21,347 bases of DNA from Rhizobium sp. Q54 (GTDB lineage: Bacteria; Pseudomonadota; Alphaproteobacteria; SMXS01): the NCBI GenBank assembly GCA_945872035.1, contig CAMBYA010000003.1:1-21347 (forward strand), given 5' to 3'. This document shows positions 1 to 20,694 of this stretch, in pieces. Each line of letters starts with the position of its first letter. The first letter of the stretch is position 1. A model generated the notes under the pieces. That model saw nothing but the letters and a program-made list of their open reading frames with translations, had not been told where the DNA came from and searched no databases. Made by a program: the position numbers and the translations under genes.

Positions 1-824
1 GCCAGGTCGGTGCCGGACGCCTTGCCCATGGCCTCGCGGGCGGCCTTACCCTCGGGCGTGTCCGAGCTCATGATCTTCATGGTCTCGTACCAGGCGCCCG
101 CCAGCGCGCGGCCGAAATTGGGATTGTCCTTCAGCGTCTGGGTGTTGACCACCGACAGGTCCATGATCTCGCCGGGGATCTGGCTGGAATCGAAAACCTT
201 GTGGGCGTTCTTGTCGGCGAGGATCTCGGCGACCAGCGGGTTCCAGGTGACCACCGAGGTGACGTCCTTGGTCTTCCAGGCGGCGACCATGTCGGCGTCC
301 GAGGTGTTGACCACGGTGACGTCCTTCTCGGTCTTGCCGATCGACTGCAGCGCGCGGGCCATCAGGTAGTGGGACACGGACAGCTCGACCAGATTGACCT
401 TCTGGCCGACGAGGTCGGGCAGCTTGGTCTTGCCCTTCAGGATGATCGCGTCGTTGCCGTTGGAGAAGTCGCCGACGATCAGCGCCGTGGTGTCGACACC
501 GCCGACCGACGGGATGGCGAGCGTGTCCATGTTGGTGGCGACCACGCCGTCATAGGCGCCGGCGGTGTACTGGTTGATCGATTCCACGTAGTCGTTGAAC
601 TGCACCACATCGATCTTGATGCCGTATTTGTCGGCCCACTTCTTGACGATGCCGTTGTCGGCGGCCCAGCCCCACGGCATCCAGCCGGCATAGATCGACC
701 ACGCGAACTTGAATTCGGTCTTCTTGGCGGCGCTCGCCGGCGCGGCGAACGCGGTCAGCGTCATGGCGGCGATGGCAAGCGCGGCGACGAGTTTTGATGC
801 TTTCTGCCCAAACGTTTTCTGCAT
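1..824 (-). CDS. ABC transporter substrate-binding protein, guanidine/'urea carboxylase-region' type (3' end outside window)
   Basis: The first 274 codons are present and the gene runs off the left edge. The start is ATG at 824, with GGAGG at 838-834 (9-base spacer). Residues 1-32 form a signal peptide (basic start, Ala-rich core, cleavage near APASA), so the product is periplasmic. The mature part begins FKFAWSIYAGWMPWGW and continues with VQFNDYVESINQY, GVVATNMDTLAIP and a VNTSDADMVAAW segment, a pattern typical of NitT/TauT-type binding proteins. The closest family I recall is the binding protein found beside urea carboxylase genes and usually named a putative urea transporter component. 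The guanidine-I riboswitch in its leader, and the known reassignment of many such carboxylases to guanidine, make guanidine or a derivative the likelier ligand (inference). Permease, ATPase and carboxylase genes would be expected beyond the left edge. Confidence 0.9.
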   Translation of the reverse strand, partial: MQKTFGQKASKLVAALAIAAMTLTAFAAPASAAKKTEFKFAWSIYAGWMPWGWAADNGIVKKWADKYGIKIDVVQFNDYVESINQYTAGAYDGVVATNMDTLAIPSVGGVDTTALIVGDFSNGNDAIILKGKTKLPDLVGQKVNLVELSVSHYLMARALQSIGKTEKDVTVVNTSDADMVAAWKTKDVTSVVTWNPLVAEILADKNAHKVFDSSQIPGEIMDLSVVNTQTLKDNPNFGRALAGAWYETMKIMSSDTPEGKAAREAMGKASGTDL

Positions 825-899
825 AGTCCCAATCCTCCAAAACGAGTGCTGATCCGAGGATTGGCGAGGCCGCAGGTATGATGCCAATCCTAGCATCAT
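825..899 (-). promoter_or_regulatory. Riboswitch expression platform with competing pairings to the Shine-Dalgarno
   Basis: Three related elements lie between aptamer and start codon on the minus strand. AGGATTGGC is at 891-883, its complement GCCAATCCTC at 865-856, and GAGGATTGG, which contains the Shine-Dalgarno, at 837-829. The middle element can pair with nine bases of either flank, so the two pairings exclude each other. A further 7-bp hairpin ATGATGC (899-893) / GCATCAT (884-878) would cage the first element in its loop. I see no hairpin followed by a T run, so control is probably at translation rather than termination. Which fold is ligand-bound is inference. Confidence 0.65.
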
Positions 900-1009
900 G
901 GTGACCTCCCGGGCTTTTGTCCCGCCGTGTACTCGGCCGCTGTTCACCGGACGAGCGGCGGCTCTCGGACCAGTCGCGCGGAACATCCGCGCCGGAACCC
1001 TAGCCGCCC
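900..1009 (-). ncRNA. Guanidine-I (ykkC-I) riboswitch aptamer
   Basis: Read on the minus strand, the leader carries the hallmark conserved blocks of this class in order: CTAGGGTTCCG (1003-993), a stem GCGCGG/CCGCGC closing a short loop, ACTGGTCCGAGAGC (974-961), a variable hairpin GCCGCT/AGCGGC, and ACACGGCGGGACAAAAGCCC (930-911) followed by GGGAGG. A P1 helix can form between about 1008-1003 and 905-900, with one C-A mismatch and one wobble. The class binds guanidinium and turns on guanidine exporters, carboxylases and their transporters. Here it sits 76 bases upstream of the binding-protein start codon, on the same strand. The match of several invariant blocks in correct order leaves little room for chance. 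Confidence 0.96.
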
Positions 1010-1017
1010 TATGCCAT

Positions 1018-1048
1018 GTAATAAGCAACTCCCGTGCCAGCGGCACAA
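1018..1048 (-). promoter_or_regulatory. Possible promoter for the riboswitch leader
   Basis: On the minus strand a TTGTGC box (1048-1043) is followed after 19 bases by TATTAC (1023-1018). The predicted start near 1011-1010 falls just before riboswitch helix P1 at about 1008, which is the main reason to favour it. Both boxes match the sigma-70 consensus only partly and the spacer is long. Confidence 0.35.
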
Positions 1049-1171
1049 ACGCGGGCTTTCGCATCCGCGCGACGGTGCATGTCGGCCACTTCGGCCAATC
1101 CATGGGCAGGAATTGGGCACTTTTTAATCATATTCCACACGCGCTCAATATTTGGACACTTGGCTGCGCGC

Positions 1172-1200
1172 TTGGCCAGTCGCGGCCGGTGCATTACATA
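1172..1200 (+). promoter_or_regulatory. Possible promoter for the leucyl aminopeptidase gene
   Basis: TTGGCC (1172-1177) and TACATA (1195-1200) are separated by 17 bases and would give a start near 1207, about 27 bases before the GTG at 1234. Box matches are weak (4/6 and 3/6). Position is the main argument. Confidence 0.25.
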
Positions 1201-1233
1201 CGGGATCGACCATTCCTCTTGGCAGAGACGCCC

Positions 1234-2631
<1,398 letters not shown>

Positions 2632-2681
2632 ATTTGTTGGGGGGCGCTTGTAATCAATGACCGGAAACCGATACTCTTTCT

Positions 2682-3029
2682 ATGACGTTGCAACTGACAA
2701 ATCCCCAGGCACTGAGCCTTTGGCTGAACACCGTAAGCACGCTGGTCCGCGGCGAGGAAACGCACGATCTGACCTCGCGTCAGATGGCGATCCTGCTTAC
2801 CGTCTATCTCAATCCCGGTCCGCACACGGTGCGCGGTCTCGCCGCCGAGCTGGATATCACCAAGCCGGTGGTGACGCGGGCGCTGGATACGCTCGGCAGG
2901 CTGGGCCTGCTGAAACGCCGGCGCGACATGACGGACAAGCGGAACGTGCTGATCGAGCGGACGCCGCGCGGCGCCAACTATCTGGGCCAGCTCTCGGACA
3001 TCATCGTCACGGCGGGCTGCGACGCCTGA
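2682..3029 (+). CDS. Small MarR-like winged-helix DNA-binding protein
   Basis: The 115-residue protein reads as a compact winged helix. Helix-turn-helix is at about 46-76 (TVRGLAAELDITKPVVTRAL) and the wing at about 78-95 (KRRRDMTDKRNVLIERT), with a D-x-R-N type motif typical of MarR proteins. It is shorter than usual MarR regulators (about 140-160 residues), lacking much of the dimerisation helices. The start at 2682 is the first possible one in frame, because TGA lies at 2658-2660. No Shine-Dalgarno precedes it. It lies between a peptidase and a cell-wall hydrolase and may regulate them, but no operator is evident. Confidence 0.8.
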   Translation: MTLQLTNPQALSLWLNTVSTLVRGEETHDLTSRQMAILLTVYLNPGPHTVRGLAAELDITKPVVTRALDTLGRLGLLKRRRDMTDKRNVLIERTPRGANYLGQLSDIIVTAGCDA

Positions 3030-3036
3030 CGCGGCC

Positions 3037-3891
3037 TTGGCCGTGAAGGGCGATCCACGTATCACGCCGGCCCGCGAGGACCTGGCCGCCGATTATCTGC
3101 GCGCAGTGGTCAAGGTCGCCAGCTACGCCAAGGGCGTGCCGAAGCAGGTGCGGCTGCCCTATGCGCCGCTGCACAAACTGCCCGACACTGCTACCGGCCG
3201 GCTGACCGAAGCGCTGATGGGGGAAGCCGTCACGGTCTATGAGGAAAAGGGCGGCTGGTCGTGGTGCCAGCTCGCCGCCGACGGCTACGTCGGCTATATG
3301 CCGAGCGTGGCCTTGGGCGAGCCCGGCCCGGAGCCGACCCACAAGGTGGCCGCGCTGCGCACCTTCATCTACCGCCAGCCCGATCTGAAATCCCCTGTCC
3401 TGGGCGCCGCCAGCCTGGGCGTGACCGTCGCCGCCACCGGAGAAGAAGGCGAGTTCACCGCCATCGATGGCGGCGGCTGGGTGTTCACCGGCCATCTGAA
3501 GCCGGTGGACGAGGTTGAATCCGATTACCTGACCACCGCCATCCGCTTCATCGGCGTGCCCTATCTGTGGGGCGGCAACACCAGCATGGGCCTGGACTGC
3601 TCGGGCCTGGTGCAGACCTCGCTGCGCTTCGCCGGCATCCTCAATTGCCCGCGCGACAGCGACATGCAGGCGGCCGGCCTGGGCGAGCCCGTCGAGCCCG
3701 ACGCGCGCCTCGCCCGGCGCGGCGACCTGGTGTTCTTTCCCGGTCATGTGGGCCTGGTGATCGACGACGGCGTGCTGCTCCACGCCAACGCCTGGGACAT
3801 GATGGTCTCGCCGCACCCGCTGCGCTACGTGGTCGCCGAGATCGCCAAGAAGAACCCGACCCCGATCACGGCGATCCGGCGGCTGGTCTAG
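3037..3891 (+). CDS. NlpC/P60 (C40) peptidase with SH3-like domains
   Basis: The protein has 284 residues from TTG at 3037; GTG at 3043 is equally possible, and neither has a strong Shine-Dalgarno. Residues about 30-155 are two bacterial SH3-like repeats (LMGEAVTVYEEKGGWSWCQL, DGYVGYMPSVAL). Residues about 160-284 are the NlpC/P60 cysteine peptidase domain, with Cys188 in LDCSGLVQ, His237 in FFPGHVGLVID and His249 in LLHANAWDM. Family members cut gamma-D-glutamyl-diaminoacid bonds in murein peptides. There is no signal peptide or lipobox, so it probably acts on muropeptides in the cytosol (inference), fitting the aminopeptidase upstream. It starts 7 bases after the winged-helix gene and ends 12 bases before the convergent yejF. 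Confidence 0.9.
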   Translation: MAVKGDPRITPAREDLAADYLRAVVKVASYAKGVPKQVRLPYAPLHKLPDTATGRLTEALMGEAVTVYEEKGGWSWCQLAADGYVGYMPSVALGEPGPEPTHKVAALRTFIYRQPDLKSPVLGAASLGVTVAATGEEGEFTAIDGGGWVFTGHLKPVDEVESDYLTTAIRFIGVPYLWGGNTSMGLDCSGLVQTSLRFAGILNCPRDSDMQAAGLGEPVEPDARLARRGDLVFFPGHVGLVIDDGVLLHANAWDMMVSPHPLRYVVAEIAKKNPTPITAIRRLV

Positions 3892-3903
3892 GGCTGCGGT
3901 TCG

Positions 3904-5526
3904 TCAGGTCCCCACCGCCTCGGCGTGCGCCACCTCCAGGTTGAAGGCGGCGGCCATCAGCGCCTTGGTGTAGTCGGTTTCCGGATGATCGAAAATGCGG
4001 TCGGCGGGGCCGTGCTCGACCACCTTGCCGTCCTTGAGCACCAGCACCTGGTCGGACAGGGCGCGCACGACACGCAGATCGTGGCTGATGAACATGTAGG
4101 TGAGGTCGTGGCGCGCCTGCAAATCGCGCAGCAGATCGACGATCTGGGCCTGCACCGACATGTCGAGCGCCGAGGTCGGCTCGTCCAGCACCAGGAAGCG
4201 CGGCTTGAGCACCAGGGCCCGGGCAATCGAGATGCGCTGGCGCTGGCCGCCGGAGAATTCGTGGGGATAGCGGTTGCGCATGTCCGGGTCGAGGCCGACC
4301 TCGCCCATCACCTCGACCACGCGCCCGTCGCGCTCGGCCTCGGTCAGCTGCTTCTCGTGGATGGTCAGGCCTTCCTCGATGATCTGGGCGACGGACAGCC
4401 GCGGGCTGAGCGAGCCGAACGGATCCTGGAAGACGATCTGCATCTCGCGCCGCAGCGGGCGCATGTCGTCGAACGAGCGTCCCGCCACGTCCTGGCCGGC
4501 GAAGCGGATCGGCCCATCGCTGGAGATCAGCCGCAGGATGGCGAGACCCAGCGTGGTCTTGCCCGAGCCGGATTCGCCGACGACGCCGAGCGTGGTGCCG
4601 GACCGGACCGAGATGGTGACGTCGTCGACCGCCTTCACGTTGTCGATAGTCTTGCGCAGCAGGCCGCCCTTGATCGGGAAATACACCTTCAGATGGTCGG
4701 TCTCGACCAGCACCGGCAGGTTATCCGGCTTGGGCGCGGGCCGCCCACGCGGCGCGGACGCAAGCAGTTTCCGGGTATAGGGATGCTGGGGATCGGCGAA
4801 CAACGCCTTAGACGGGCCGCTCTCGACGATCTCGCCGCCGGTCATGACGCAGACCCGGTCGGTGAATTTTTCGACGATGCCGAGGTCGTGGGTGATCATC
4901 AGGATCGCCATGCCCATGCGCTGCTGCAGGTCGCGCAGCAGCGCCAGGATCTGGGCCTGGATGGTGACGTCGAGCGCCGTGGTCGGCTCGTCGGCGATCA
5001 GCAGGTCCGGCTCGTTGGCGAGCGCCATGGCGATCATCACCCGCTGCCGTTGGCCGCCGGACAGCTCGTGCGGATAGGCCTTGAGCCGCTGGGTGACGTT
5101 GCCGAGCCCGACGAGGTTGAGCAGCTCGACGATGCGGGCGCGGGCCTGCGCGCCGCGCATGCCCTTGTGGATCGCCAGCACCTCGCCGATCTGCCGCTCG
5201 ACCGTGTGCAGCGGGTTGAGCGAGGTCAGCGGTTCCTGGAACACCATGGAGATGCGGTTGCCGCGGATCGACCGCAGCGTCTGTTCGTCGGCGCCAACGA
5301 GTTCGCGCCCCTCGAAGGTGATCGAGCCCGTCGGATGGAACGCCGTCGGATAGGGCAGCAACTGCAGCACCGACAGCGCGCTGACCGACTTTCCCGAGCC
5401 GGATTCGCCCACCAGGGCCAGGGTCTCGCCCTTGCCGATCGAGAACGAGACGCCGCGCACCGCCTCGACGATCCGGTCCTCGGCCCGGAAGTGCACCGAC
5501 AGATTGGTCACCTCGAGCAGGCTCAT
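3904..5526 (-). CDS. yejF: Peptide ABC importer ATPase with two nucleotide-binding domains (YejF)
   Basis: A 540-residue fusion of two ATPase domains energises the YejBE permease on the cytoplasmic side. Domain 1 has Walker A GESGSGKS (40-47), signature LSGGQRQR (155-162) and Walker B LLIADEP (175-181). An oligopeptide-transporter C-terminal segment follows ([17 protein letters not shown], about 245-261). Domain 2 has Walker A GESGSGKT (317-324), signature [10 protein letters not shown] (424-433) and Walker B FLVLDEP (444-450). Both domains look intact, with the H-loop histidines in ITHD and ISHD. The start ATG at 5526 overlaps the yejE stop (ATGA). The frame is open upstream to 5640, but that stretch is inside yejE. 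It is the last gene of the operon, and I see no terminator before the convergent neighbour. Confidence 0.95.
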
Positions 5527-6596
5527 TTGCGCCCGCCCACGGTCTTGCGCGGATCGAATGCGTCGCGCACCGCCTCGCCGATGAAGATCAGCAGGCTCAG
5601 CATGAGGGCGAGCACCAGGAAGGCCGAGATGCCGAGCCACGGCGCCTGGAGGTTGTTCTTGCCCTGCTTCAACAGCTCGCCCAGCGAGGCAGAGCCCGGC
5701 GGCAGGCCGAAACCCAGGAAGTCGAGGGCTGTCAGCGTGGTGATCGAGCCGTTGAGGATGAACGGCATGAAGGTGAGGGTCGCCACCATGGCGTTGGGCA
5801 GCACATGCTTGACCATGATCCGGCCGTCACCGAGGCCAAGCGCGCGGGCGGCGCGGACATAGTCGAAGTTGCGGGCGCGCAGGAACTCGGCGCGCACCAC
5901 GTCCACCAGGCTGGTCCACCGGAACAGCACCATGATGCCCAGCAGCCACCAGAAATTAGGGGTGACGATGCTGGCCAGGATGATCAGCATGAACAGCTCG
6001 GGCAGGCCGCCCCATATCTCGATGAACCGCTGGCCGGCCAGGTCGACCTTGCCGCCGAAATAGCCCTGCATGGCGCCCGCCCAGACGCCGATGATCGACG
6101 AGAACACGGTGAGCAGCAGGCCGAACAGCACCGAGATGCGAAAGCCGTAGATCACCCGCGCCGCTACGTCGCGCGCCTGGTCGTCGGTGCCCAGCGGATT
6201 GTCCCAGCTGGGCGGCGCGGGCGCCGGCACCGGGATATTCCGGTTGATGGTGTTCTCGCTGTAGGGGATCAGCGGCCAGACGATCCAGCCGCCGGTTTCC
6301 TTGATCAGGTTCTGGACATAGGGATCGCGGTAATCCGTCGGCGTCTCGAAGAAGCCGCCGAACTCCGTTTCCGGGTAATCCTTCACCACCGGAAAATAGA
6401 GCTCGTTCTTGTACTCGAGCACCAGCGGCCGCTCGTTGGCGATGAACTCGGCGAACAGCGACAGGACGAACAGCACGCCGAATATCCACAGCGACCAGTA
6501 GCCGCGACGGTTGCGCTTGAACACGGTCCAACGGCGCTCGTTCAGCGGGGTCATCTTCCACAACAGGAAGCGGCGGGCGGCGGGCTGTGCGGTCAT
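5523..6596 (-). CDS. yejE: Peptide ABC importer permease (YejE)
   Basis: The 357-residue inner-membrane permease has an OppC/DppC-type layout. There is a short basic cytoplasmic start, a first membrane segment at about 35-52, a long periplasmic loop holding [17 protein letters not shown], then the five-helix transporter core. The coupling (EAA-type) loop is readable as [20 protein letters not shown] followed by HVLPNA. It pairs with YejB to form the channel and contacts YejF through the coupling loop. The ATG at 6596 overlaps the yejB stop by the ATGA arrangement and its own stop overlaps yejF, so translation is probably coupled along the operon. Length is close to the E. coli protein (about 340). 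Confidence 0.94.
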
Positions 6597-7714
6597 CCGA
6601 CGTCCCGCGTGGCGAAGTCGATGCGCGGGTCGACCCACACATAGGTCAGGTCGCCGATCAGCTTCACGATCAGGCCGATCAGGGTGAAGACGTAGAGCGA
6701 GCCGAACATGATCGGATAGTCGCGCTGGATCAGCGCCTCGAAGGTCAGCAGGCCCAGACCGTCGAGCGAGAAGATGTATTCGATCAGCAGTGAGTTGGCG
6801 AACAGGATCGAGACGAACAGGCCCGGGAAGCCGGCGATGACGATCAGCATGGCGTTGCGGAACACGTGGCCGTAGAGCACCCGGTGCTCGGTCAGGCCCT
6901 TGGCACGGGCGGTCATGACATACTGCTTGTTGATCTCGTCGAGGAACGAGTTCTTGGTCAGCATGGTCAGGCTGGCGAAGCCGCCGATGGTCATGGCGAG
7001 CACCGGCAGGCAGATGTGCCAGAGATAATCGAGCGTCTTGCCGAACCAGGTCAGCTGGTCCCAGTTGTCCGACGTCAGTCCGCGCAACGGGAAGATGTCC
7101 CAATAGGAGCCGCCCGCGAACAACACGATCAGCAGCACCGCGAACAGGAAGCCGGGGATGGCGTAGCCGACGATGATGGCGGCGCTGGTCCAGGTGTCGA
7201 AGCGGGTGCCGTCGCGCACCGCCTTGCGGATGCCGAGCGGGATCGACACCAGGTAGACGATCAGCGTGGTCCACAGGCCCAAGGTGATGGACACCGGCAG
7301 CTTTTCCAGGATCAGGTCGAGCACCGGCCTGCCCTTGAAGAAGCTCTCGCCGAAATTGAAGGTCGCGTAGTCGCGCACCATGATGAAGAAGCGCTCATGG
7401 GCCGGCTTGTCGAAGCCGAACTGCTTCTCGATACGGGCGATCAGCGCCGGATCGAGCCCCTGCGCGCCGCGGTACTTCACGTCGGCGCCCGCGCCCTGCC
7501 CGGCCACGTCGGCCTGGCGCGCGGCCGAGCCCATGTCGCCGCCGGTGCCGCCGCCCAGGCGCGCGGTCGAGCCTGCGTCGGTGCCGGTGATCTGGGCGAT
7601 CATCTGCTCCACCGGACCGCCCGGCGCCACCTGCACGATGGCGAAGTTGATGACCAGGATGCCGAGCAGGGTCGGGATGATCAGCAGCAGGCGGCGCAGG
7701 ATATAGGCGGCCAT
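6593..7714 (-). CDS. yejB: Peptide ABC importer permease (YejB)
   Basis: This 373-residue OppB/DppB-type permease closely resembles E. coli YejB as I remember it: start [20 protein letters not shown], then [23 protein letters not shown] [37 protein letters not shown] coupling loop, and end [13 protein letters not shown]. Between the first membrane helix and the core is a Gly/Ala-rich periplasmic insert (about residues 45-80) that also occurs, in other sequence, in enterobacterial YejB. The ATG at 7714 shares one base with the stop of the upstream binding-protein gene (TGATG). The reading frame continues upstream to 8032 but overlaps the binding protein and is not used. Confidence 0.95.
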
Positions 7715-9585
7715 CAGCGTCCCCGCGCGGCGGTCAGCGCCTTGGCCCTGGCCGGGTCGAACCACCAGAGGTCCTGCACGCCCCGCTCGAATGGGGGCTT
7801 GACCTTCGGCCGTCCGAACTTGTCCCACCAGGCGATGGTGTGGCTGCCCTTGTAGTACTGCGGCACCATGTAGTGGTTGAACATGATCACCCGGTCGAGC
7901 GCCCGCGCGGCGGCGATCAGCGCCGGCCGGTCGCGCGCGTCCAGGATCGCCTTGATCATGGCATCGACCACCGGATTCTTGATGCCGGCCAGGTTGAAGC
8001 TGCCCTTCAAGTCGGCGGCAGCCGACGACCAATAGGCACGCTGCTCCACGCCCGGGGTGTTCGGCCAGGCGATGCGCTCCATGGTCAGGTCGAAGTCGAA
8101 GTCCTTGACCCGCTGCTCGTACTGGGCCGGGTCGACGGTGCGCAGGCTGGCCTGCACGCCGATCCGCTTCAGGCTCTCGATATAGGGCAGAAGCACCCGC
8201 TCGAAGCCGGGCTCGTAGTTCAGCAACTCCACGGTGAGCGGTTTGCCGTCCTTGCCGGTCAGGATGCCGCCTTTCATGGTGTAGCCTGCCTGCTGGAGCA
8301 AGGTCACGGCCTTGCGCAGGTTCTGGCGGTTGCCACCCTGGCCGTCGCTCTTCGGCGGCTCGAACGCGGTGCCGAACACCTCGGGCAGCAACTGCTTGCG
8401 ATACGGCTCGAGCAGCGCCACTTCAGCAGGGCCGGGCATGCCGGTCGAGGCGAGCTCCGAATTCTCGAACACGCTGCCGGTGCGGCCGTAGGCGCCGTAG
8501 AAGATCGCCCGATTGGTCCATTCGAAATCGAACGCCAGGTCGAGCGCCTCGCGCACCCGCACGTCCTTGAACTGGTTGCGGCGCAGATTGATGAAGAAGA
8601 ACTGGGCGCCGGACGGCCGGTTGTCCTTCAGCGTATCGCGCAAGATCCATTTCCGGTCGATGCCGGGGCCCTTGTATTCGGTGGCCCAGGTCTTCGATGT
8701 GAATTCCTCGCGGAAGTCGTAGGCGCCGGCCAGGAACGCCTCCATGGCGATGGCGCGGTCCTGGAAGTATTCGAGCCGGATGGTGTCGAAGTTCATCCGG
8801 CCGACGCTGACCGGCAGGTCTTTCGCCCAGTAATCCTTGACTCGCTCGTAGCTCACCGAACGGTTCGGCACGACCTTGCCGATCCTGTAAGGGCCACTGG
8901 TCAGGGGCGGCTCAAGCGAAGGCTTGGTGAACTCGTGCTTCGTGTACCAGGCCTTCGACAGGATCGGCAACTGGGCGACGGTCATCGGCAGGTCGCGGAC
9001 CGCGCCCTTTGGGTCGAAGCTGAACTTCACCTGCGACGGCGACAGGGCGACGGCGTCCTTCACGTCGGCGAGCACAACGGCAAAGCGCGGGTGGCCCTTC
9101 TCCTTGAGCGCCTTGAAGGTGAAGGCCACGTCGGCGGCGGTGATCGGCGTGCCGTCGTGCCACCGGGCCTGCTTACGGATATTGAACACCACCCAGGTCC
9201 GGTCGGGCGCCACCTCGGCGCTTTCAGCGACCAGGCCATAGACCGCGTCGGGCTCGTCATAGGCCCGCACCATCAGGGAGTCGTAAACCAGGCTGCGCGG
9301 GTCCTCGTTGTCGATGAACTCGGCGCCGGTGCCCGCCAGGATGAAAGGGTTCAGGCTATCGAAGGTGGTCTTGCCGCTCGACCCCATCAGCGCCATGGAA
9401 CCGCCCTTGGGCGCCTGCGGGTTCACATAGTCGAAGTGCTTGAAATCCGGCTTGTATTTGAGCGCGCCGAATGCCGACAGACCGTGGACCGGCGCTGCTT
9501 CGGCCGGGCCGCCGCCAGCAAGATTGGCAAACACGCTGCCGATGGACAGGAAGGCCGCGACCGCGGCAGTGGCTAAGGCTCTCAT
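7714..9585 (-). CDS. yejA: Periplasmic oligopeptide-binding protein, YejA-type (second copy in operon)
   Basis: A 623-residue member of the SBP_bac_5 family. Residues 1-31 are a signal peptide (cleavage near AEAA). The mature protein starts with [20 protein letters not shown] and [12 protein letters not shown], characteristic of YejA, and later has [20 protein letters not shown], the SBP_bac_5 hallmark region, and SGPYRIGKV. It ends [13 protein letters not shown]...WWFDPA. It would deliver peptides to YejBE. It starts 57 bases after the other yejA copy and overlaps yejB by one base. No good Shine-Dalgarno precedes the ATG at 9585, so expression may depend on readthrough from the upstream gene. 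Relative to the first copy it is clearly homologous along its whole length but diverged, so ligand range may differ. Confidence 0.93.
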
Positions 9586-9642
9586 GCCACGATCATAACG
9601 GCATCGGCGGGCGGTGCCAGCATGTTGCGCGCGCGAAGTGCG

Positions 9643-11484
9643 TCACTTCATCTTCGCCTTGAGCGCGGCGTCCTTGGCCGGATCGAGCCACCAGATCACC
9701 GGGAAGCCGTGATGATGTGCGGGCATCTTGGCGGGGCGGCCGAACTTGTCCCACCAGGCGATGCGGAAAACCCGGGTGTGCCACATGGGGATGACGTAGT
9801 AATTATTGAGCAGCACCCGGTCGAGCGCCCGCGTCGCGGCGACCAGACCGGCACGGTCCGGCGCGTAGATGACCTTGTCGATCAGCGCGTCGACCGCCGG
9901 GTTGCGGATGCCGATGATGTTGCGGCTGCCGGTACGCGTGGACGCGGCGCTGCTCCAGAATTCGCGCTGCTCGTTGCCGGGCGATTCCGACTGCGGGAAG
10001 GTCTCGACCGTCATGTCGAAGTCGAAGTCCTTCATCCTCTGTTCGTATTGCGCCGGATCGACGGAGCGGATGTTGGCGTCGATGCCGAGCCGCTTCAGCG
10101 CCTCGACATAGGGCAGCATGATCCGCTCGAACGCCGGCTGGGCGTTGAGGATCTCGAACGTCAGCGGTTTGCCGGTCTGCTTGTTGACCAGCGCCTTGCC
10201 CTTGATCTCATAGCCGGCCTGCTGCAGCAGCGCGACCGCCTGACGCAGATTGTCGCGGTTGTTGCCGGTGCCGTCGGTCGCGGGCGCCTTGAAAGGCTGG
10301 GTGAACACCGACGCCGGGATCTTGCCCTTGAGCGGGTTGAGCAGCGCCAGTTCGGCCGGCGACGGCAGGCCGCTGCTGGCCAGGTCCGAGTTGGAGAAGA
10401 AGCTCTCTGTCCTCGCGTACTGGCCGTAGAACATGTTCCTGTTGGTCCACTCGAAATCGAACGCCAGGCCGAGCGCCTGGCGGACGCGGACGTCCTTGAA
10501 CACGTCGCGGCGGATGTTGAAGGCGAAGGCCTGCATACCGGTCGGGTTCTGGTGGCGCAGCTCCTCCTTTTTCACCAGGCCAGCCTTGAGCGCCGGAAAG
10601 CTCTCCGGGGTGTACTGGGTAGCCCAGGTCTTGGCGGTGTTCTCGCTGATGAAGTCGAACTTGTAGGTCTTCAGCGCCTCCAGCTCGACGGTCTCGTCCT
10701 GAAAGAATTCGTAGGTGATGCGGTCGAAGTTGTAGAAGCCCTTGTTCACCGGCAGGTCGGCGCCCCAGTAGTCCTTGACCCGCTCATAGGTGATGGAGCG
10801 CCCCGGCTTCACCTCGGAGATCCTGTACGGCCCGCTGCCCAGCGGCGGATCCTGGGTGACCTTGTCGAACGCCCTTCCCTGCCAGTAGTGCTTCGGCAGC
10901 ACGGGAAGCTGGCCCATGATCATCGGCAGTTCGCGGTTGCCGGCCTGGTCGAAGCTGAACTTCACTTTGCGCGGCCCGGTTTTCTCGGCCTTCTTCACGT
11001 TGTGATAATACTGCGCCCAGAATGGCGTGCCTTTCTCCATCAGCGTGTTGAACGAGAAGATCACATCCTCGGGCGTGATGGGCTTGCCGTCATGCCACTT
11101 CGCCTTCGGATTGAGCGTGTACTCGACCCAGGAATTGTCCGACGGCACGGTGATGCTCTCGGCGATCAGGCCATAGGCGGTCGACGGTTCACCGATGCTG
11201 TCCTGGGTCAGGCTCTCGAACACGAGGCCGATGCCCTGCGGCGGCGTGCCCGCGACGATATAGGGATTGAGGCTGTCGAAGGTGCCGGGTGCGACGCTGA
11301 GCCTGGCGGTGCCCCCCTTCGGCGCGTTCGGGTTGACGAAGTCGAAATGGTCGAAGCCGGACTTGTATCTGGGCTCGCCGATCAGCGACAGGGCGTTGAC
11401 GGTTTTTGTCGACACGGGCTGCTGTGCCATCGCCGGGACCATGGCGGCAAGAAACAGCGCCGTGGCAAGAATCACTTTCTTCAT
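9643..11484 (-). CDS. yejA: Periplasmic oligopeptide-binding protein, YejA-type (first copy in operon)
   Basis: The 613-residue protein is made from ATG at 11484, chosen because GGGAGG at 11500-11495 stands 10 bases before it and a compact signal peptide follows at once (MKKVILATALFLAAMVPAMA, cut before QQ). The open frame reaches 11520, but the extra 12 residues would spoil the signal peptide. The mature start carries ALSLIGEPRYKSGFDHFDFV and NPNAPKGGTARL, and later KWHDGKPITPEDVIFSFNTL and GSGPYRISEV, as expected for the SBP_bac_5 peptide binders. It is first in the operon, directly behind a candidate promoter. Known YejABEF systems import microcin C-type and other peptides and affect antimicrobial-peptide sensitivity; the ligand here cannot be read from sequence. 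Confidence 0.94.
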   Translation of the reverse strand: MKKVILATALFLAAMVPAMAQQPVSTKTVNALSLIGEPRYKSGFDHFDFVNPNAPKGGTARLSVAPGTFDSLNPYIVAGTPPQGIGLVFESLTQDSIGEPSTAYGLIAESITVPSDNSWVEYTLNPKAKWHDGKPITPEDVIFSFNTLMEKGTPFWAQYYHNVKKAEKTGPRKVKFSFDQAGNRELPMIMGQLPVLPKHYWQGRAFDKVTQDPPLGSGPYRISEVKPGRSITYERVKDYWGADLPVNKGFYNFDRITYEFFQDETVELEALKTYKFDFISENTAKTWATQYTPESFPALKAGLVKKEELRHQNPTGMQAFAFNIRRDVFKDVRVRQALGLAFDFEWTNRNMFYGQYARTESFFSNSDLASSGLPSPAELALLNPLKGKIPASVFTQPFKAPATDGTGNNRDNLRQAVALLQQAGYEIKGKALVNKQTGKPLTFEILNAQPAFERIMLPYVEALKRLGIDANIRSVDPAQYEQRMKDFDFDMTVETFPQSESPGNEQREFWSSAASTRTGSRNIIGIRNPAVDALIDKVIYAPDRAGLVAATRALDRVLLNNYYVIPMWHTRVFRIAWWDKFGRPAKMPAHHHGFPVIWWLDPAKDAALKAKMK

Positions 11485-11494
11485 CGGTATGTCG

Positions 11495-11500
11495 CCTCCC
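11495..11500 (-). promoter_or_regulatory. Ribosome binding site of the first yejA
   Basis: GGGAGG on the minus strand lies 10 bases before the ATG at 11484. It settles the start, since no comparable site precedes the upstream in-frame codon. Confidence 0.75.
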
Positions 11501-11520
11501 TGTCCCAACCCGTCCCGCAA

Positions 11521-16231: not shown

Positions 16232-18058
16232 ATGACCACGCTGATGCCCAACGACCCGTTCGTGCTGCTCGAAAACAGCCGCGATCCGCGCGCGGCCTCG
16301 CTGCTGTTCGAGAAGCCCGAGCGCATCGTCCGCTGCGACGATCCCGCCGGCATCGGCGCCGCGCTGGCGGCGATCCAGCAGGGACTGGACGATGGCCTGC
16401 ACGCCGCCGGCTGGCTGTCCTACGAGGTCGGCTACGCGCTGGAGAAACGGCTTGTGCCGCTGATGCCGGCCGATCGCCGCGAACCGCTGGTCTGGTTCGG
16501 GCTGTTCAGCCGCCGCCGGCGGCTTGAGCAGGCGGAGGTGGACATCTTCTGGCGCGAGCGGACGCAGGGCACGTCCTATGCCCTGTCGCCGTTGCGCCCG
16601 TCCATCACCCGCGACGACTATCTGGCGGCGTTCGCCAGGGTTCAGGATTTCCTGGCGGCGGGCGACGTCTACCAGATCAACCTGACCATGGACGCGGTCG
16701 CCGATTTCTCCGGCGACCCGATGAAGCTGCACGCGGCGCTGCGCCAGGCCCAGCCGGTCGCCCATGGCGGCTTCATCACGGCGGGCGACTGGTGCGTGTC
16801 GTCCCATTCGCCCGAGCTGTTCCTCGAGCGGCGCGGCAACCGCCTGACGGTGAAGCCGATGAAGGGCACCGCGCGGCGCGGCCGCTCCTTCGCCGAGGAC
16901 GAGGCGGCGGCCCGCGCGCTCAGGGACGATCCCAAGTCCCGCGCCGAGAACCTGATGATCGTCGACCTGGAACGCAACGACCTGTCGCGGATCGCGCGGC
17001 CCGGTTCGGTGACCGTCGACGGCCTGTTCGAGGTAGAGGCCTATCCCACGGTGCTGCAGCTGGTCTCGACCGTCCGCGCCGAGGTGGCGGACGGCGTGCG
17101 CAGCCTCGATGTGCTGAGGTCCATCTTCCCCTGCGGCTCGGTCACCGGCGCGCCAAAGATCCGCGCCATGGAGATCATCGCCGCGCTGGAGGGCCGGGCG
17201 CGCGGCGTCTACACCGGCGCGATCGGCCACATCGCGCCGGATGGCGACGCCGCGTTCAGCGTGCCGATCCGCACCCTCGTGATCGCCGATGGAATCGCGC
17301 GCATGGGTATCGGCAGCGGCGTGGTCGCGGATTCCGACGGGCCCGGCGAGTGGGACGAATCCCTGCTGAAGGCCGCCTTCCTGGAAGACCCGAAGGATCG
17401 CCCCAGCCTGATCGAGACCCTGCTGTGGGAACGCGCCGGCGGCCACTGGCTGCTGGATCAGCATCTGGACCGCCTGCGGGAGTCGGCGGCCTATTTCGTC
17501 TATCCGTTCGACGATGCGACGATCCGCGACGCCCTCGCGCTCGCCGCCGAAAGCTATTCCCCGGACACGGACCAACGGGTGCGCCTGCTGCTTGCGCCGT
17601 CCGGCGAGGTTTCGGTCACCGCCGCGGCGGTCGACGTGGAAGGCGGCCGCGCGGCGCTACGCGCCGAACCGCCGACGGTCGCCTGGGCGGCGGGCGCGGT
17701 GAATTCGGCCAATCCCTACCTGGCCCACAAGACCACGCGGCGCGGCGCCTATGACCGGGCGCTGAAGGCGGCAACCGCCGCCGGCCACTGGGACCTGCTG
17801 TTCGTCAACGAACGCGGCGAGGTGACCGAAGGCGCGCGCAGCACCCTGTTCCTGCACAAGGACGGCCGCTGGCTGACGCCGCCGGTGTCGAGCGGCCTGC
17901 TGCCCGGCGTGTTCCGGCGGCATTTCATGACCGGCACCCATGTCGAAGTCCGGCCGCTCACGCCGGAAGACGTCCGGGCAGCCGACAGGGTCTGCCTCGC
18001 CAACGCCGTCTGGGGCATGGTCGACGTGCGCCTGGACGAGTCGGAACTTCCCTTTTAG
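16232..18058 (+). CDS. pabB: Aminodeoxychorismate synthase component I fused to aminodeoxychorismate lyase (PabB-PabC)
   Basis: The 608-residue bifunctional enzyme makes p-aminobenzoate for folate. Residues about 1-385 are the chorismate-binding PabB part: VYQINLT (146-152), the conserved Lys211 in KPMKGT, AENLMIVDLERNDLSR (238-253) and PCGSVTGAPKIRAMEII (300-316). Residues about 390-608 are the class IV aminotransferase-like PabC part, with the pyridoxal-phosphate lysine most likely K500 in YLAHKTTRR, NERGEVTEGARSTLF (526-540) and SSGLLPGVFR (553-562). The fused enzyme still needs a glutamine amidotransferase (PabA), which is not in this window. ATG 16232 is taken as the start; ATG 16244 is an in-frame alternative, and neither has a strong Shine-Dalgarno. 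Both halves look intact. Confidence 0.94.
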   Translation: MTTLMPNDPFVLLENSRDPRAASLLFEKPERIVRCDDPAGIGAALAAIQQGLDDGLHAAGWLSYEVGYALEKRLVPLMPADRREPLVWFGLFSRRRRLEQAEVDIFWRERTQGTSYALSPLRPSITRDDYLAAFARVQDFLAAGDVYQINLTMDAVADFSGDPMKLHAALRQAQPVAHGGFITAGDWCVSSHSPELFLERRGNRLTVKPMKGTARRGRSFAEDEAAARALRDDPKSRAENLMIVDLERNDLSRIARPGSVTVDGLFEVEAYPTVLQLVSTVRAEVADGVRSLDVLRSIFPCGSVTGAPKIRAMEIIAALEGRARGVYTGAIGHIAPDGDAAFSVPIRTLVIADGIARMGIGSGVVADSDGPGEWDESLLKAAFLEDPKDRPSLIETLLWERAGGHWLLDQHLDRLRESAAYFVYPFDDATIRDALALAAESYSPDTDQRVRLLLAPSGEVSVTAAAVDVEGGRAALRAEPPTVAWAAGAVNSANPYLAHKTTRRGAYDRALKAATAAGHWDLLFVNERGEVTEGARSTLFLHKDGRWLTPPVSSGLLPGVFRRHFMTGTHVEVRPLTPEDVRAADRVCLANAVWGMVDVRLDESELPF

Positions 18059-18615: not shown

Positions 18616-20694
18616 GTGATCTCGTCCCCGACCGCCGCCTCCGCGCGCGCACTGCTCTGCCTGCTTGCCTTCTCCACGCCCGCCTTCGCCGATGACGTTC
18701 GGGACGCCTCTGAAGCGGCCGAGATGGACAGCGTCATCGTCAGCGCCAATCCCATCCCCGGCGAGCCGCCCATCGTCGCCGACGCGCGCAAGCGCCTGTC
18801 GCGCACGCCGGGCGCCGTGGCGGCCGTGTCCGCCGAGAGCTACGACAACCGGCTCGCCACCGGCTTCGCCGACATCCTGCGCGACGTGCCGGGCGTACTT
18901 GCCCAGAAGCGCTATGGCGAGGAGTCGCGGCTGTCGATCCGCGGTTCCGGCATCGACCAGTCCTACCACCAGCGGGGCGTGCTGATCGCCCAGGACGGCG
19001 TGCCTTTCGCCGATGCCGATGGCTTTTCGGACTTCCAGAAGGTCGATGCCCTCGGCGCCCGCTATGTCGAAGTCTACAAGGGCGGCAATGCGTTGCGTTT
19101 CGGCGGCGCCCAGCTCGGCGGCGCGGTCAACCTGGTCACGCCGAACGGCAAGACCGCCGAGGCCGAGAACGAACTCCGCCTGGAAGGCGGTTCGTTCGGC
19201 AGCTTTCGAGGCCGTGCCGCCTTCGCCCGGCAACTCGGCAACTGGGACATCTACGCCGCCGGCAGCGGCCTGACCGCCGACGGCTGGCGCGACCACAGCG
19301 CGCAGAGCCAGGGCCGCGGCACGCTCAACGTCGGCTACAGCTTCGGCGAGGACCGGGAGATCCGCGCCATCGGCTCCTACGCCGATATCAAGCAGGAGGT
19401 GCCGGGCACGCTGACGCTCGCCGACGCGCTGACCGTGCCGCGCAACGCCGGCGCCGGCATCATCGCTAACGACTGGGCCCGCGACCAGACCGTGGCGAGG
19501 GGCTCGCTGCAAACCCGCTGGCGGTTCAACGAGGAACTGGTGTTCGAGGGCGGCTTCTATGCCACGGCCACGAAAATCCATCACCCCATCGTCATTGTCA
19601 TCGATCAGGACATCGAGACCCAGGGCGCCTTCGGCCGTTTCGACTGGGCCGGCGACATCGCCGGGATGAAGGCCGACCTGTTCTGGGGCGTGTCGTACCG
19701 CCAGGGCACCAACAAGCAGCAGCTCTATGTCAACATGGGCGGCAGCAGCGGCTTCCAGTTCGGCGATTCCCGGCAGAAGGCCACCGGTTTGGACGTGTTC
19801 GCCGAAGGCCGCCTGTTCGTCATCGAACCGCTCGCGATCGTTGTCGGCGGCTCCTACGGCCGCGCGACGCGCGATTACACCGACTACCTCAACCCGGGGA
19901 ACGCCGCCTCGAAGAACTTCGACTGGTTCTCGCCCCGCGTCGGCCTGCTGTGGGCGTTCGCGGGCGGCGCCCAGGTCTACGCCAACGTCACGCGTTCGGT
20001 GGAACCGCCGCATTACGGCGCGCTGGTGCAGGCACCCAATCCCGGCTTCGTGCCCGTCGACGCGCAGCGCGCCTGGACCGGCGAGGTCGGCGCCCGCGGC
20101 CGCACCGGCGACCTGGCGTGGGACGTCACCTTCTACCGCGCTTGGGTCAAGGGCGAGCTGCTCAGCTTCCGGCTCGTCACCGGCGTGCCCGCCAGCTTCT
20201 TCAACGCCGACAAGACCATCCACCAGGGCATCGAGGCCGCGCTGGACTGGACCATCCTGCGCGACGCGCCGGGCGGGGGCAGCCTGTCGCTCAAGCAGAG
20301 CTACACCTTCAGCGACTTCACCTTCGACGGCGACCCGATCTACGGCGACAACCGCCTTCCGGTCGCGCCCAGGCACCAGTACCGCGCCGAGCTGACCTAC
20401 CGGCATCCGGCCGGCTGGTACATCGCCCCGGCGGTCGACTGGCGCCCCGAAGCGGTCTGGGCGGACTACGCCAACACCATGAAGGTGCCGGGCTATGCGC
20501 TGCTGTCCATCGGCGCCGGCATCGACATCGGCGAGCACGTCACCCTCTATCTCGACGGACGCAACCTCACCGGCAAGCGCTATGTGGGCGAGTTCGGCGC
20601 GATGACCAACGCCGCCGATCCGGCGGTCGCCAAGGACGTGTTCTTTCCCGGCGAGGGCCGTTCGGTGTTCGCCGGTCTGACCGTCAGGCTCTAG
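18616..20694 (+). CDS. TonB-dependent outer-membrane receptor (metal or metal-chelate uptake likely)
   Basis: The 692-residue receptor starts with GTG behind AGGGAG. Signal peptide is about 1-26 (cut near AFADD). A TonB-box-like DSVIVSA follows (38-44). The plug domain spans about 60-175, with SRLSIRGSGIDQSYHQRGV (105-122) and YVEVYKGGNALRFGGAQLGG (150-169), a pattern I associate with FecA-like receptors. The rest is the beta barrel, with repeated aromatic strands and DGRNLTGKRYVGEFG near the C-terminus; it ends in VRL rather than the usual aromatic residue. Neighbours (DUF2946-like before, PCu(A)C chaperone 38 bases after) suggest copper or a copper chelate as substrate, but the sequence alone does not show this. 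Confidence 0.9.
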   Translation: MISSPTAASARALLCLLAFSTPAFADDVRDASEAAEMDSVIVSANPIPGEPPIVADARKRLSRTPGAVAAVSAESYDNRLATGFADILRDVPGVLAQKRYGEESRLSIRGSGIDQSYHQRGVLIAQDGVPFADADGFSDFQKVDALGARYVEVYKGGNALRFGGAQLGGAVNLVTPNGKTAEAENELRLEGGSFGSFRGRAAFARQLGNWDIYAAGSGLTADGWRDHSAQSQGRGTLNVGYSFGEDREIRAIGSYADIKQEVPGTLTLADALTVPRNAGAGIIANDWARDQTVARGSLQTRWRFNEELVFEGGFYATATKIHHPIVIVIDQDIETQGAFGRFDWAGDIAGMKADLFWGVSYRQGTNKQQLYVNMGGSSGFQFGDSRQKATGLDVFAEGRLFVIEPLAIVVGGSYGRATRDYTDYLNPGNAASKNFDWFSPRVGLLWAFAGGAQVYANVTRSVEPPHYGALVQAPNPGFVPVDAQRAWTGEVGARGRTGDLAWDVTFYRAWVKGELLSFRLVTGVPASFFNADKTIHQGIEAALDWTILRDAPGGGSLSLKQSYTFSDFTFDGDPIYGDNRLPVAPRHQYRAELTYRHPAGWYIAPAVDWRPEAVWADYANTMKVPGYALLSIGAGIDIGEHVTLYLDGRNLTGKRYVGEFGAMTNAADPAVAKDVFFPGEGRSVFAGLTVRL

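Follow-up and report, generated by a model that had tools for sequence, protein, structure and literature searches.

A short RNA leader near the left end of the 21,347-nucleotide stretch of Rhizobium sp. Q54 DNA analysed here (the window) raises the question of what the ABC transporter gene behind it imports, urea as the name of its protein family has it or guanidine, and of how the leader may control this gene. A preliminary description had placed a Guanidine-I riboswitch at 900-1009 on the minus strand, upstream of a NitT/TauT-type binding protein, and had read the transporter as an importer of guanidine or a close derivative. Our sequence comparisons indicate that this is very probably the head of a guanidine-assimilation operon, in which a guanidine-responsive aptamer would turn on the importer and the breakdown enzymes.

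Aptamer and first gene

The Rfam search of the window returned RF00442 (Guanidine-I) at 1014-904 (-), covering positions 1-107 of 107 in the model and scoring 100.6 bits (gathering score 63, E 1.1e-17). This covariance-model search had been proposed as a check and came out positive; the feature itself is present, and the limits first given for it were off by 4-5 bases. RF00442 was the sole Rfam family above its cut-off in the window, and no second family was listed within 780-1100 at E up to 1.

904..1014, minus strand: Guanidine-I (ykkC subtype 1) riboswitch aptamer; RF00442 100.6 bits, home-made model R1 (training set includes this aptamer) 112.1 bits

The three invariant blocks announced for the minus strand were found exactly and in order, with CTAGGGTTCCG at 1003-993, GGTCCGAGAGC at 971-961 and ACACGGCGGGACAAAAGCCC at 930-911, an arrangement seen in none of 200 first-order Markov replicas of the window searched on both strands. 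The assembly to which the window belongs (78% complete) yielded no other Guanidine-I copy. Within the aptamer, the GAGAG run carries an A at 963 (-), presumably the A46 equivalent of the Guanidine-I aptamer. The A46 adenosine separates guanidine switches from the PRPP and ppGpp variants, according to the part of the source available to us (PMC6031431). Assignment to ykkC subtype 2 (PRPP, ppGpp) was set aside because of the single Rfam family at E up to 1 and the guanidine-related gene context. The motif and its neighbours suggest a genuine guanidine-sensing RNA switch heading a guanidine uptake-and-breakdown operon, with guanidine as its probable ligand.

The gene behind the aptamer starts with ATG at 824 (-), preceded by GGAGG at 838-834, and is truncated by the left end of the window.

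3..824, minus strand: ABC substrate-binding protein, 5' part (274 aa), TIGR03427, 410.9 bits, cut-off 333.9

This fragment lies above the curated cut-off of TIGR03427, a family named 'putative urea ABC transporter substrate-binding protein'. NMT1 domains are present in the frame 824-3 (-), and the SsuA and taurine families score far under their cut-offs. The TIGR03427 profile is split over two contigs of the same assembly (G000), with positions 1-240 on the window's contig C3 and 243-326 on contig C91, where the remainder of the protein is found (L025:1-261). The binding-protein gene of the relative G001 (L028) is 96% identical in DNA to that of the window over 807 bases, and the predicted structure of its full product (357 aa, mean pLDDT 86.4) gave TauA and SsuA as best matches. 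With these taurine and sulfonate binding proteins the model shares the predicted fold (Foldseek E 2.6e-19 to 6ssy) but only 15-19% identity, and the gene context differs. The proposed NitT/TauT-type gene downstream of the riboswitch is therefore borne out as a TauA-like member of TIGR03427.

A divergent M17 aminopeptidase gene (898-2631, plus strand) has the intergenic region in common with the binding-protein gene; its frame begins inside the leader, and our guess is that the true start is probably near 1234. Elsewhere in the window we noted an ABC transporter cluster of the oligopeptide type that includes two family-5 binding proteins in a row (3904-11520, minus strand), a fused chorismate-binding and class IV aminotransferase gene (16232-18058, plus strand) and a TonB-dependent receptor (18616-20694, plus strand).

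Operon content and transported compound

The window comprises contig C3 in full and therefore does not contain the genes to the left of the binding protein. One contig of the relative G001 (L012) bridges the window leader and C91 with 4 bases between them: in its reverse complement, positions 1-3254 match the window and 3259-11471 match C91, at 94-95% identity. From this contig of G001 we infer that C3 and C91 are joined in the genome. The order on C91 is the end of the binding protein, permease, ATPase, two deiminase subunits, carboxylase (1193 residues, 97% identical to that of the relative) and allophanate hydrolase, of which residues 1-402 of 610 precede the contig end. The permease (L025:272-1106) is either broken in the assembly or affected by an assembly error, because its matches fall in two reading frames (residues 1-105 and 111-283); the permeases of relatives (L012 and others) read in one frame. 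Both PF09347 deiminase subunits and the allophanate hydrolase were matched in L025. The families found in relatives are PF00528 for the permease, PF00005 for the ATPase, PF09347 with TIGR03425 and TIGR03424 for the deiminases, TIGR02712 for the carboxylase and TIGR02713 for the hydrolase. Guanidine carboxylase and allophanate hydrolase genes, which the preliminary description had suggested looking for on the left, are thus both on C91, and the placement of these guanidine-related genes downstream of the riboswitch depends on the joining deduced from G001. Acting together, importer, carboxylase, deiminase and allophanate hydrolase would convert guanidine to ammonia and CO2. Further carboxylase matches in the same genome lie on C293 (residues 1-435, 50%) and C155 (residues 1-305, 55%), with a weak one on C6.

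Guanidine carboxylases are reported to require Asp at K. lactis positions 1584 and 1330, the latter separating them from urea carboxylase (PMC11410670, seen in part), and the accessible portion of a second source likewise gives the distinction as Asp against Asn (PMC12186494). In an alignment to K. lactis urea carboxylase 5i8i, the only urea carboxylase used as reference and one with Asn at 1330, the carboxylase of Rhizobium sp. Q54 (L025) has Asp at the equivalents of both positions. So do all eight relatives' operons that were checked, two of which are also survey records, and all 51 carboxylases of the survey described below. No urease above the family cut-off was found in the window's own assembly (78% complete). 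Among ten genomes of the bacterial family, riboswitch and TIGR03427 protein are both present in eight and both missing in two.

We surveyed the 80 closest loci, all from named genomes, of at least 583 related loci; as these are the closest ones and many are from Rhizobium, they do not reflect the proportions in the family at large. Some survey records overlap our set of G genomes (for example L012/L028, L018/L048, L148/L093 and L150/L029). Model R1 was built from 30 aptamers and matches 79 of the 80 loci, 21 of which match by construction as their aptamers were used in training; L093 has no match and L082 a weak one at 39.5 bits. An earlier regular-expression search had missed loci that R1 later caught. 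Rfam, run on 22 of the 80 loci, confirmed 19 and did not report L074, L082 and L093. In 77 loci the aptamer directly precedes the binding protein, at a distance of up to about 250 bases, and in L100 and L107 it lies about 7.3 kb upstream, ahead of deiminase and carboxylase genes. A permease match was found in 79/80 loci and an ATPase match in 78/80. By enzyme type, 51 loci have a guanidine-type carboxylase and 26 an arginase-family (guanidinase-like) enzyme, and three end too early.

The arginase-family enzyme of L093 matched 7esr/7oi1 and 9fek with 537 and 522 bits (next solved chain, 173), both of which are labelled agmatinase 2. We take 7esr/7oi1 to be the Synechocystis guanidinase and 9fek the Nitrospira guanidinase. 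Through these identities, together with the available part of PMC8390497, the arginase-family enzymes are read as guanidinases. One transporter family thus accompanies either of two enzyme types, both with guanidine as substrate. Several loci depart from the common arrangement. L044 (1302-2463) is a carboxylase-type locus with a deiminase directly after the binding protein and no permease or ATPase match. L102 has two divergent Guanidine-I aptamers, at 2957-3054 (-) and 3340-3451 (+), of which one faces the binding protein and the other the guanidinase-like gene. Guanidine-II riboswitches occur additionally inside the Guanidine-I operons of L031 (8278-8327) and L095 (13616-13663).

A more balanced picture came from 289 genomes taken evenly across the class, of which 21 had TIGR03427 entries above the cut-off, 24 in all. 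The riboswitch lies directly upstream in 15 of the 24 entries, two of which (G000, G004) are split over two contigs, and about 2.6 kb upstream with another reading frame between in the G253 entry; one entry sits at a contig end. Seven have no riboswitch nearby, so the proposition that every TIGR03427 protein is riboswitch-linked was rejected. Five of these seven belong to a dioxygenase group, and the other two are G104 and G251, which have no riboswitch anywhere in the genome. With the dioxygenase group excluded, 16 of 18 judged entries are riboswitch-linked. The dioxygenase-linked paralogues come from four genomes, in clusters with one or two 2-oxoglutarate/Fe(II) dioxygenases:

L113:4927-7076, paralogue cluster of G003
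L143:3769-8100, paralogue cluster of G050, with two binding proteins
L144:5305-8500, paralogue cluster of G176
L145:7194-10406, paralogue cluster of G272

Searches of these four clusters found neither a Guanidine-I aptamer nor a permease or ATPase of the importer kind. Two of the seven dioxygenases were compared with structures, and the best solved match of both was 9ovh, labelled ethylene/succinate-forming enzyme. G050, G176 and G272 do have a Guanidine-I operon, with no binding-protein match between riboswitch and permease, and the binding proteins listed above the cut-off in these genomes are the dioxygenase-linked ones only. Ethylene-forming enzyme releases guanidine from arginine, and MgdH starts from methylguanidine, as described in the part of PMC12508155 at our disposal. 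By analogy, and boldly read, the dioxygenase-linked binding proteins could deliver their ligand to the same permease, with the dioxygenases freeing guanidine from a larger molecule.

These results bear on the compound that the window's importer carries. Guanidine import is supported at the genome level because of the operon content and the pairing of riboswitch and enzymes in the survey loci, and the Asp signature points the same way. The TIGR03427 protein of the window is most likely a guanidine-binding protein and not a urea-binding one, and the 'urea transporter' label on the first gene, doubted from the outset, is most likely wrong; the protein belongs to the family by sequence, but unlike the family's 'urea' name the genomic context points to guanidine. 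We suspect that this name goes back to the adjoining 'urea' carboxylase. A transporter that truly carries urea, for example in urea recapture, with a riboswitch that only coordinates it with guanidine breakdown, would fit the curated family name, and in guanidinase-type loci urea is the enzyme product (PMC11410670, in the part available). We regard it as most improbable: the carboxylase pathway of this operon yields allophanate and not urea (pathway from the same part of PMC11410670), the assembly (78% complete) has no urease above the cut-off, two unrelated guanidine enzymes are each accompanied by this transporter family, and TauA and SsuA are the best structural matches, with no urea-binding protein among the matches listed. 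An importer of methylguanidine or a broader guanidino set, with guanidine as one of several substrates, seems unlikely to us but deserves more weight. A riboswitch operon of similar kind serves methylguanidine according to the accessible text of PMC12508155, and four relatives have binding-protein paralogues beside dioxygenases related to ethylene-forming enzyme. No dioxygenase relative was found on C91, however, nor any dioxygenase among the 18 scanned reading frames of the window, and the same part of PMC12508155 reports the class I switch as guanidine-specific.

Leader layout and predicted switching

Guanidine import being the preferred reading, the question is how the aptamer may act on the gene behind it. 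The following elements were recognized between the aptamer and the start codon:

903..908, minus strand: aptamer 3' edge GAGGUC, pairs with GGCCUC 871-866 (anti-P3 helix), pairing probability 0.96 unconstrained
866..871, minus strand: anti-P3 helix partner GGCCUC, from the fold
878..899, minus strand: hairpin AUGAUGC-UAGGAUUG-GCAUCAU hiding the Shine-Dalgarno (SD) mimic, 0.975 in the unconstrained fold
883..891, minus strand: element 1, SD mimic (anti-anti-SD) AGGAUUGGC, 9 bp complementary to element 2
856..865, minus strand: element 2, anti-SD GCCAAUCCUC, pairs with element 1 or the SD
828..838, minus strand: element 3, ribosome-binding site GGAGGAUUGGG, 4-14 bases before ATG 824, 9-bp complement to element 2

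Pairing of the anti-SD with the mimic and pairing with the SD are mutually exclusive, as judged by sequence complementarity only. We compared the best three-element set of each leader with 200 randomizations in which the sequence 5' of the SD was shuffled. The score of the window's set was reached by 0/200 shuffles. The leaders scored were the 77 from the survey and that of the window minus three that were too short (in L060 the wrong start had been picked), 75 in all. With p-values that ignore relatedness, 51/75 leaders had p<=0.05 and 45/75 had p<=0.01. At p<=0.05, 42/50 carboxylase-type leaders passed against 9/25 others, a comparison whose p-values and Fisher test likewise ignore relatedness. 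The 42 passing carboxylase-type leaders have 28 distinct sequence combinations, the set of L095 being unlike the rest. Eight of the 50 fail, among them a member of the bacterial family, G007 (L018, L048; scored as L048), which keeps mimic and anti-SD.

The leaders of six genus relatives (L012-L017) retain the layout of the window. Across leaders the three elements change together, for example: GGAUUGG / CCAAUCC / GGAUUGG in the window corresponds to GGGUUGG / CCAACCC / GGGUUGG in L072 and to GGAAUUGGC / GCCAAUUCC / GGAAUUGGC in L071. This pattern suggests that a three-strand platform of SD mimic, anti-SD and SD is maintained by compensating changes. By eye, guanidinase-type leaders (e.g. L082, L091, L092) have TCTCCCGG complementary to the aptamer's CCCGGGAGA, a platform unlike that of the window.

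In the unconstrained fold the anti-P3 helix has a probability of 0.96, the mimic hairpin 0.975 and the anti-SD on the SD 0.997. In the same fold, the first modelled bases of the leader, GCAUAG at 1014-1009 (-), pair with CUAUGC at 826-821 (-) at the start codon. Enforcing the aptamer pairs alone left the anti-P3 helix at 0.99. It dropped to 0.01 once aptamer bases down to 907 were also barred, which removes two of its six pairs by construction; this 'closed' aptamer, with its pairs enforced and other bases down to 907 barred, is an assumption about the ligand. For RNA 3' ends from 850 to 835, elements 1 and 2 did not pair in the free RNA (0.00), and holding the aptamer closed brought their pairing to 0.81-0.98. 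The effect is narrow, with 0.11-0.18 at 3' ends 857-855 and 0.05 at 832. In the full-length RNA the SD stays covered (P about 1.0) whether or not the aptamer is formed, and a simple equilibrium switch was rejected for this reason. Since the SD is covered in every full-length fold, the model needs folding during transcription. When the aptamer was left out, the mean gain in pairing of elements 1 and 2 exceeded 0.3 in 16 of 51 leaders, and no leader showed a loss of that size. Eight of these 16 are from Rhizobium, Agrobacterium or Mesorhizobium, and the eight others include the window. The strongest effects of aptamer removal (from 0.15 or less) were seen in the window, L028, L046, L071, L072 and L094.

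Intracellular guanidine would bind the leader aptamer and thereby turn on the ABC importer, guanidine carboxylase, carboxyguanidine deiminase and allophanate hydrolase. In the OFF state, without guanidine, the 3' edge of the aptamer would pair with GGCCUC and the hairpin would hold the SD mimic, so that the anti-SD would be free to cover the true SD. In the ON state, with guanidine, the aptamer would retain its 3' edge and the mimic may sequester the anti-SD before synthesis of the SD has finished, so that the SD stays accessible. Both the direction of switching and its kinetic nature are predicted from these folds. It is reasonably probable that the output of the leader is translational.

Most Guanidine-I switches work through a terminator (PMC12186494, as far as available), and a leader acting on transcription in that way is a rival reading. 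Within 700-1300 of the window, however, no terminator-like site was found 3' of the aptamer; the sole site in that range, at 1049-1031, lies ahead of the aptamer and is at chance level (1 against a shuffle mean of 0.6), and the helix 865-829 is followed by GGGACUAUG with no T run. A terminator platform was rejected because no such site follows the aptamer, and we regard it as improbable here. Rho-dependent termination may occur in the leader. A different arrangement would place the start codon at ATG 899 with GGGAGG of the aptamer as its SD, so that the aptamer itself covers the ribosome site. This GGGAGG lies 5 bases upstream, and the ATG shares the reading frame of the binding protein in the window and in two of six genus relatives. 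In three of the six it stands in another frame, in one no upstream ATG was found, and the binding proteins of relatives align from the Met at 824. This start was set aside because its frame is not kept across relatives, and it appears barely credible.

Relation to published operons

Published examples exist of ABC importers grouped with guanidine carboxylase or guanidinase genes and controlled by guanidine riboswitches (PMC12186494, PMC11410670 and PMC12508155, each available in part). The operon of the window is of this published kind, and the reading of such transporters as guanidine importers is already general in print. Guanidine carboxylase operons of Pseudomonas syringae, Klebsiella, Raoultella and Vreelandella may be named for comparison; importer, carboxylase, two deiminase subunits, allophanate hydrolase and guanidine riboswitch are shared, according to the same parts of these three sources. 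The reviewed enterobacterial and Vreelandella operons add a Guanidine-II switch (PMC12186494, PMC12508155, in the portions at hand), whereas here a single Guanidine-I switch was found at the head. As regards Guanidine-I itself (RF00442), the window has a full-length match, all conserved blocks and guanidine-linked genes downstream, but its platform looks translational with an SD mimic where a terminator is usual (accessible part of PMC12186494). The 'anti-anti-RBS' is a textbook riboswitch scheme (PMC7266159, part of the text).

Added here are the proposed three-strand translational platform, and riboswitch-free binding-protein paralogues beside dioxygenases in four relatives. We found neither a link between TIGR03427 and guanidine nor this platform in the small part of the open-licence literature covered, and we do not claim that they are absent from it. 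As a tentative possibility, a Guanidine-I switch that works co-transcriptionally on translation, toggling an SD mimic through the edge of its aptamer, might be kept across many alphaproteobacterial guanidine carboxylase operons, and in some relatives the binding protein might have moved to a riboswitch-free cluster. Since it would there stand beside dioxygenases like ethylene-forming enzyme, the same permease may import larger guanidino compounds that release guanidine. For riboswitch-linked loci, the comparisons presented here support reading the TIGR03427 'urea' transporter as a guanidine importer. This re-reading would alter predictions of nitrogen metabolism for the alphaproteobacteria that carry the family, and the leader may serve as a compact and testable model for the control of translation by a Guanidine-I aptamer.
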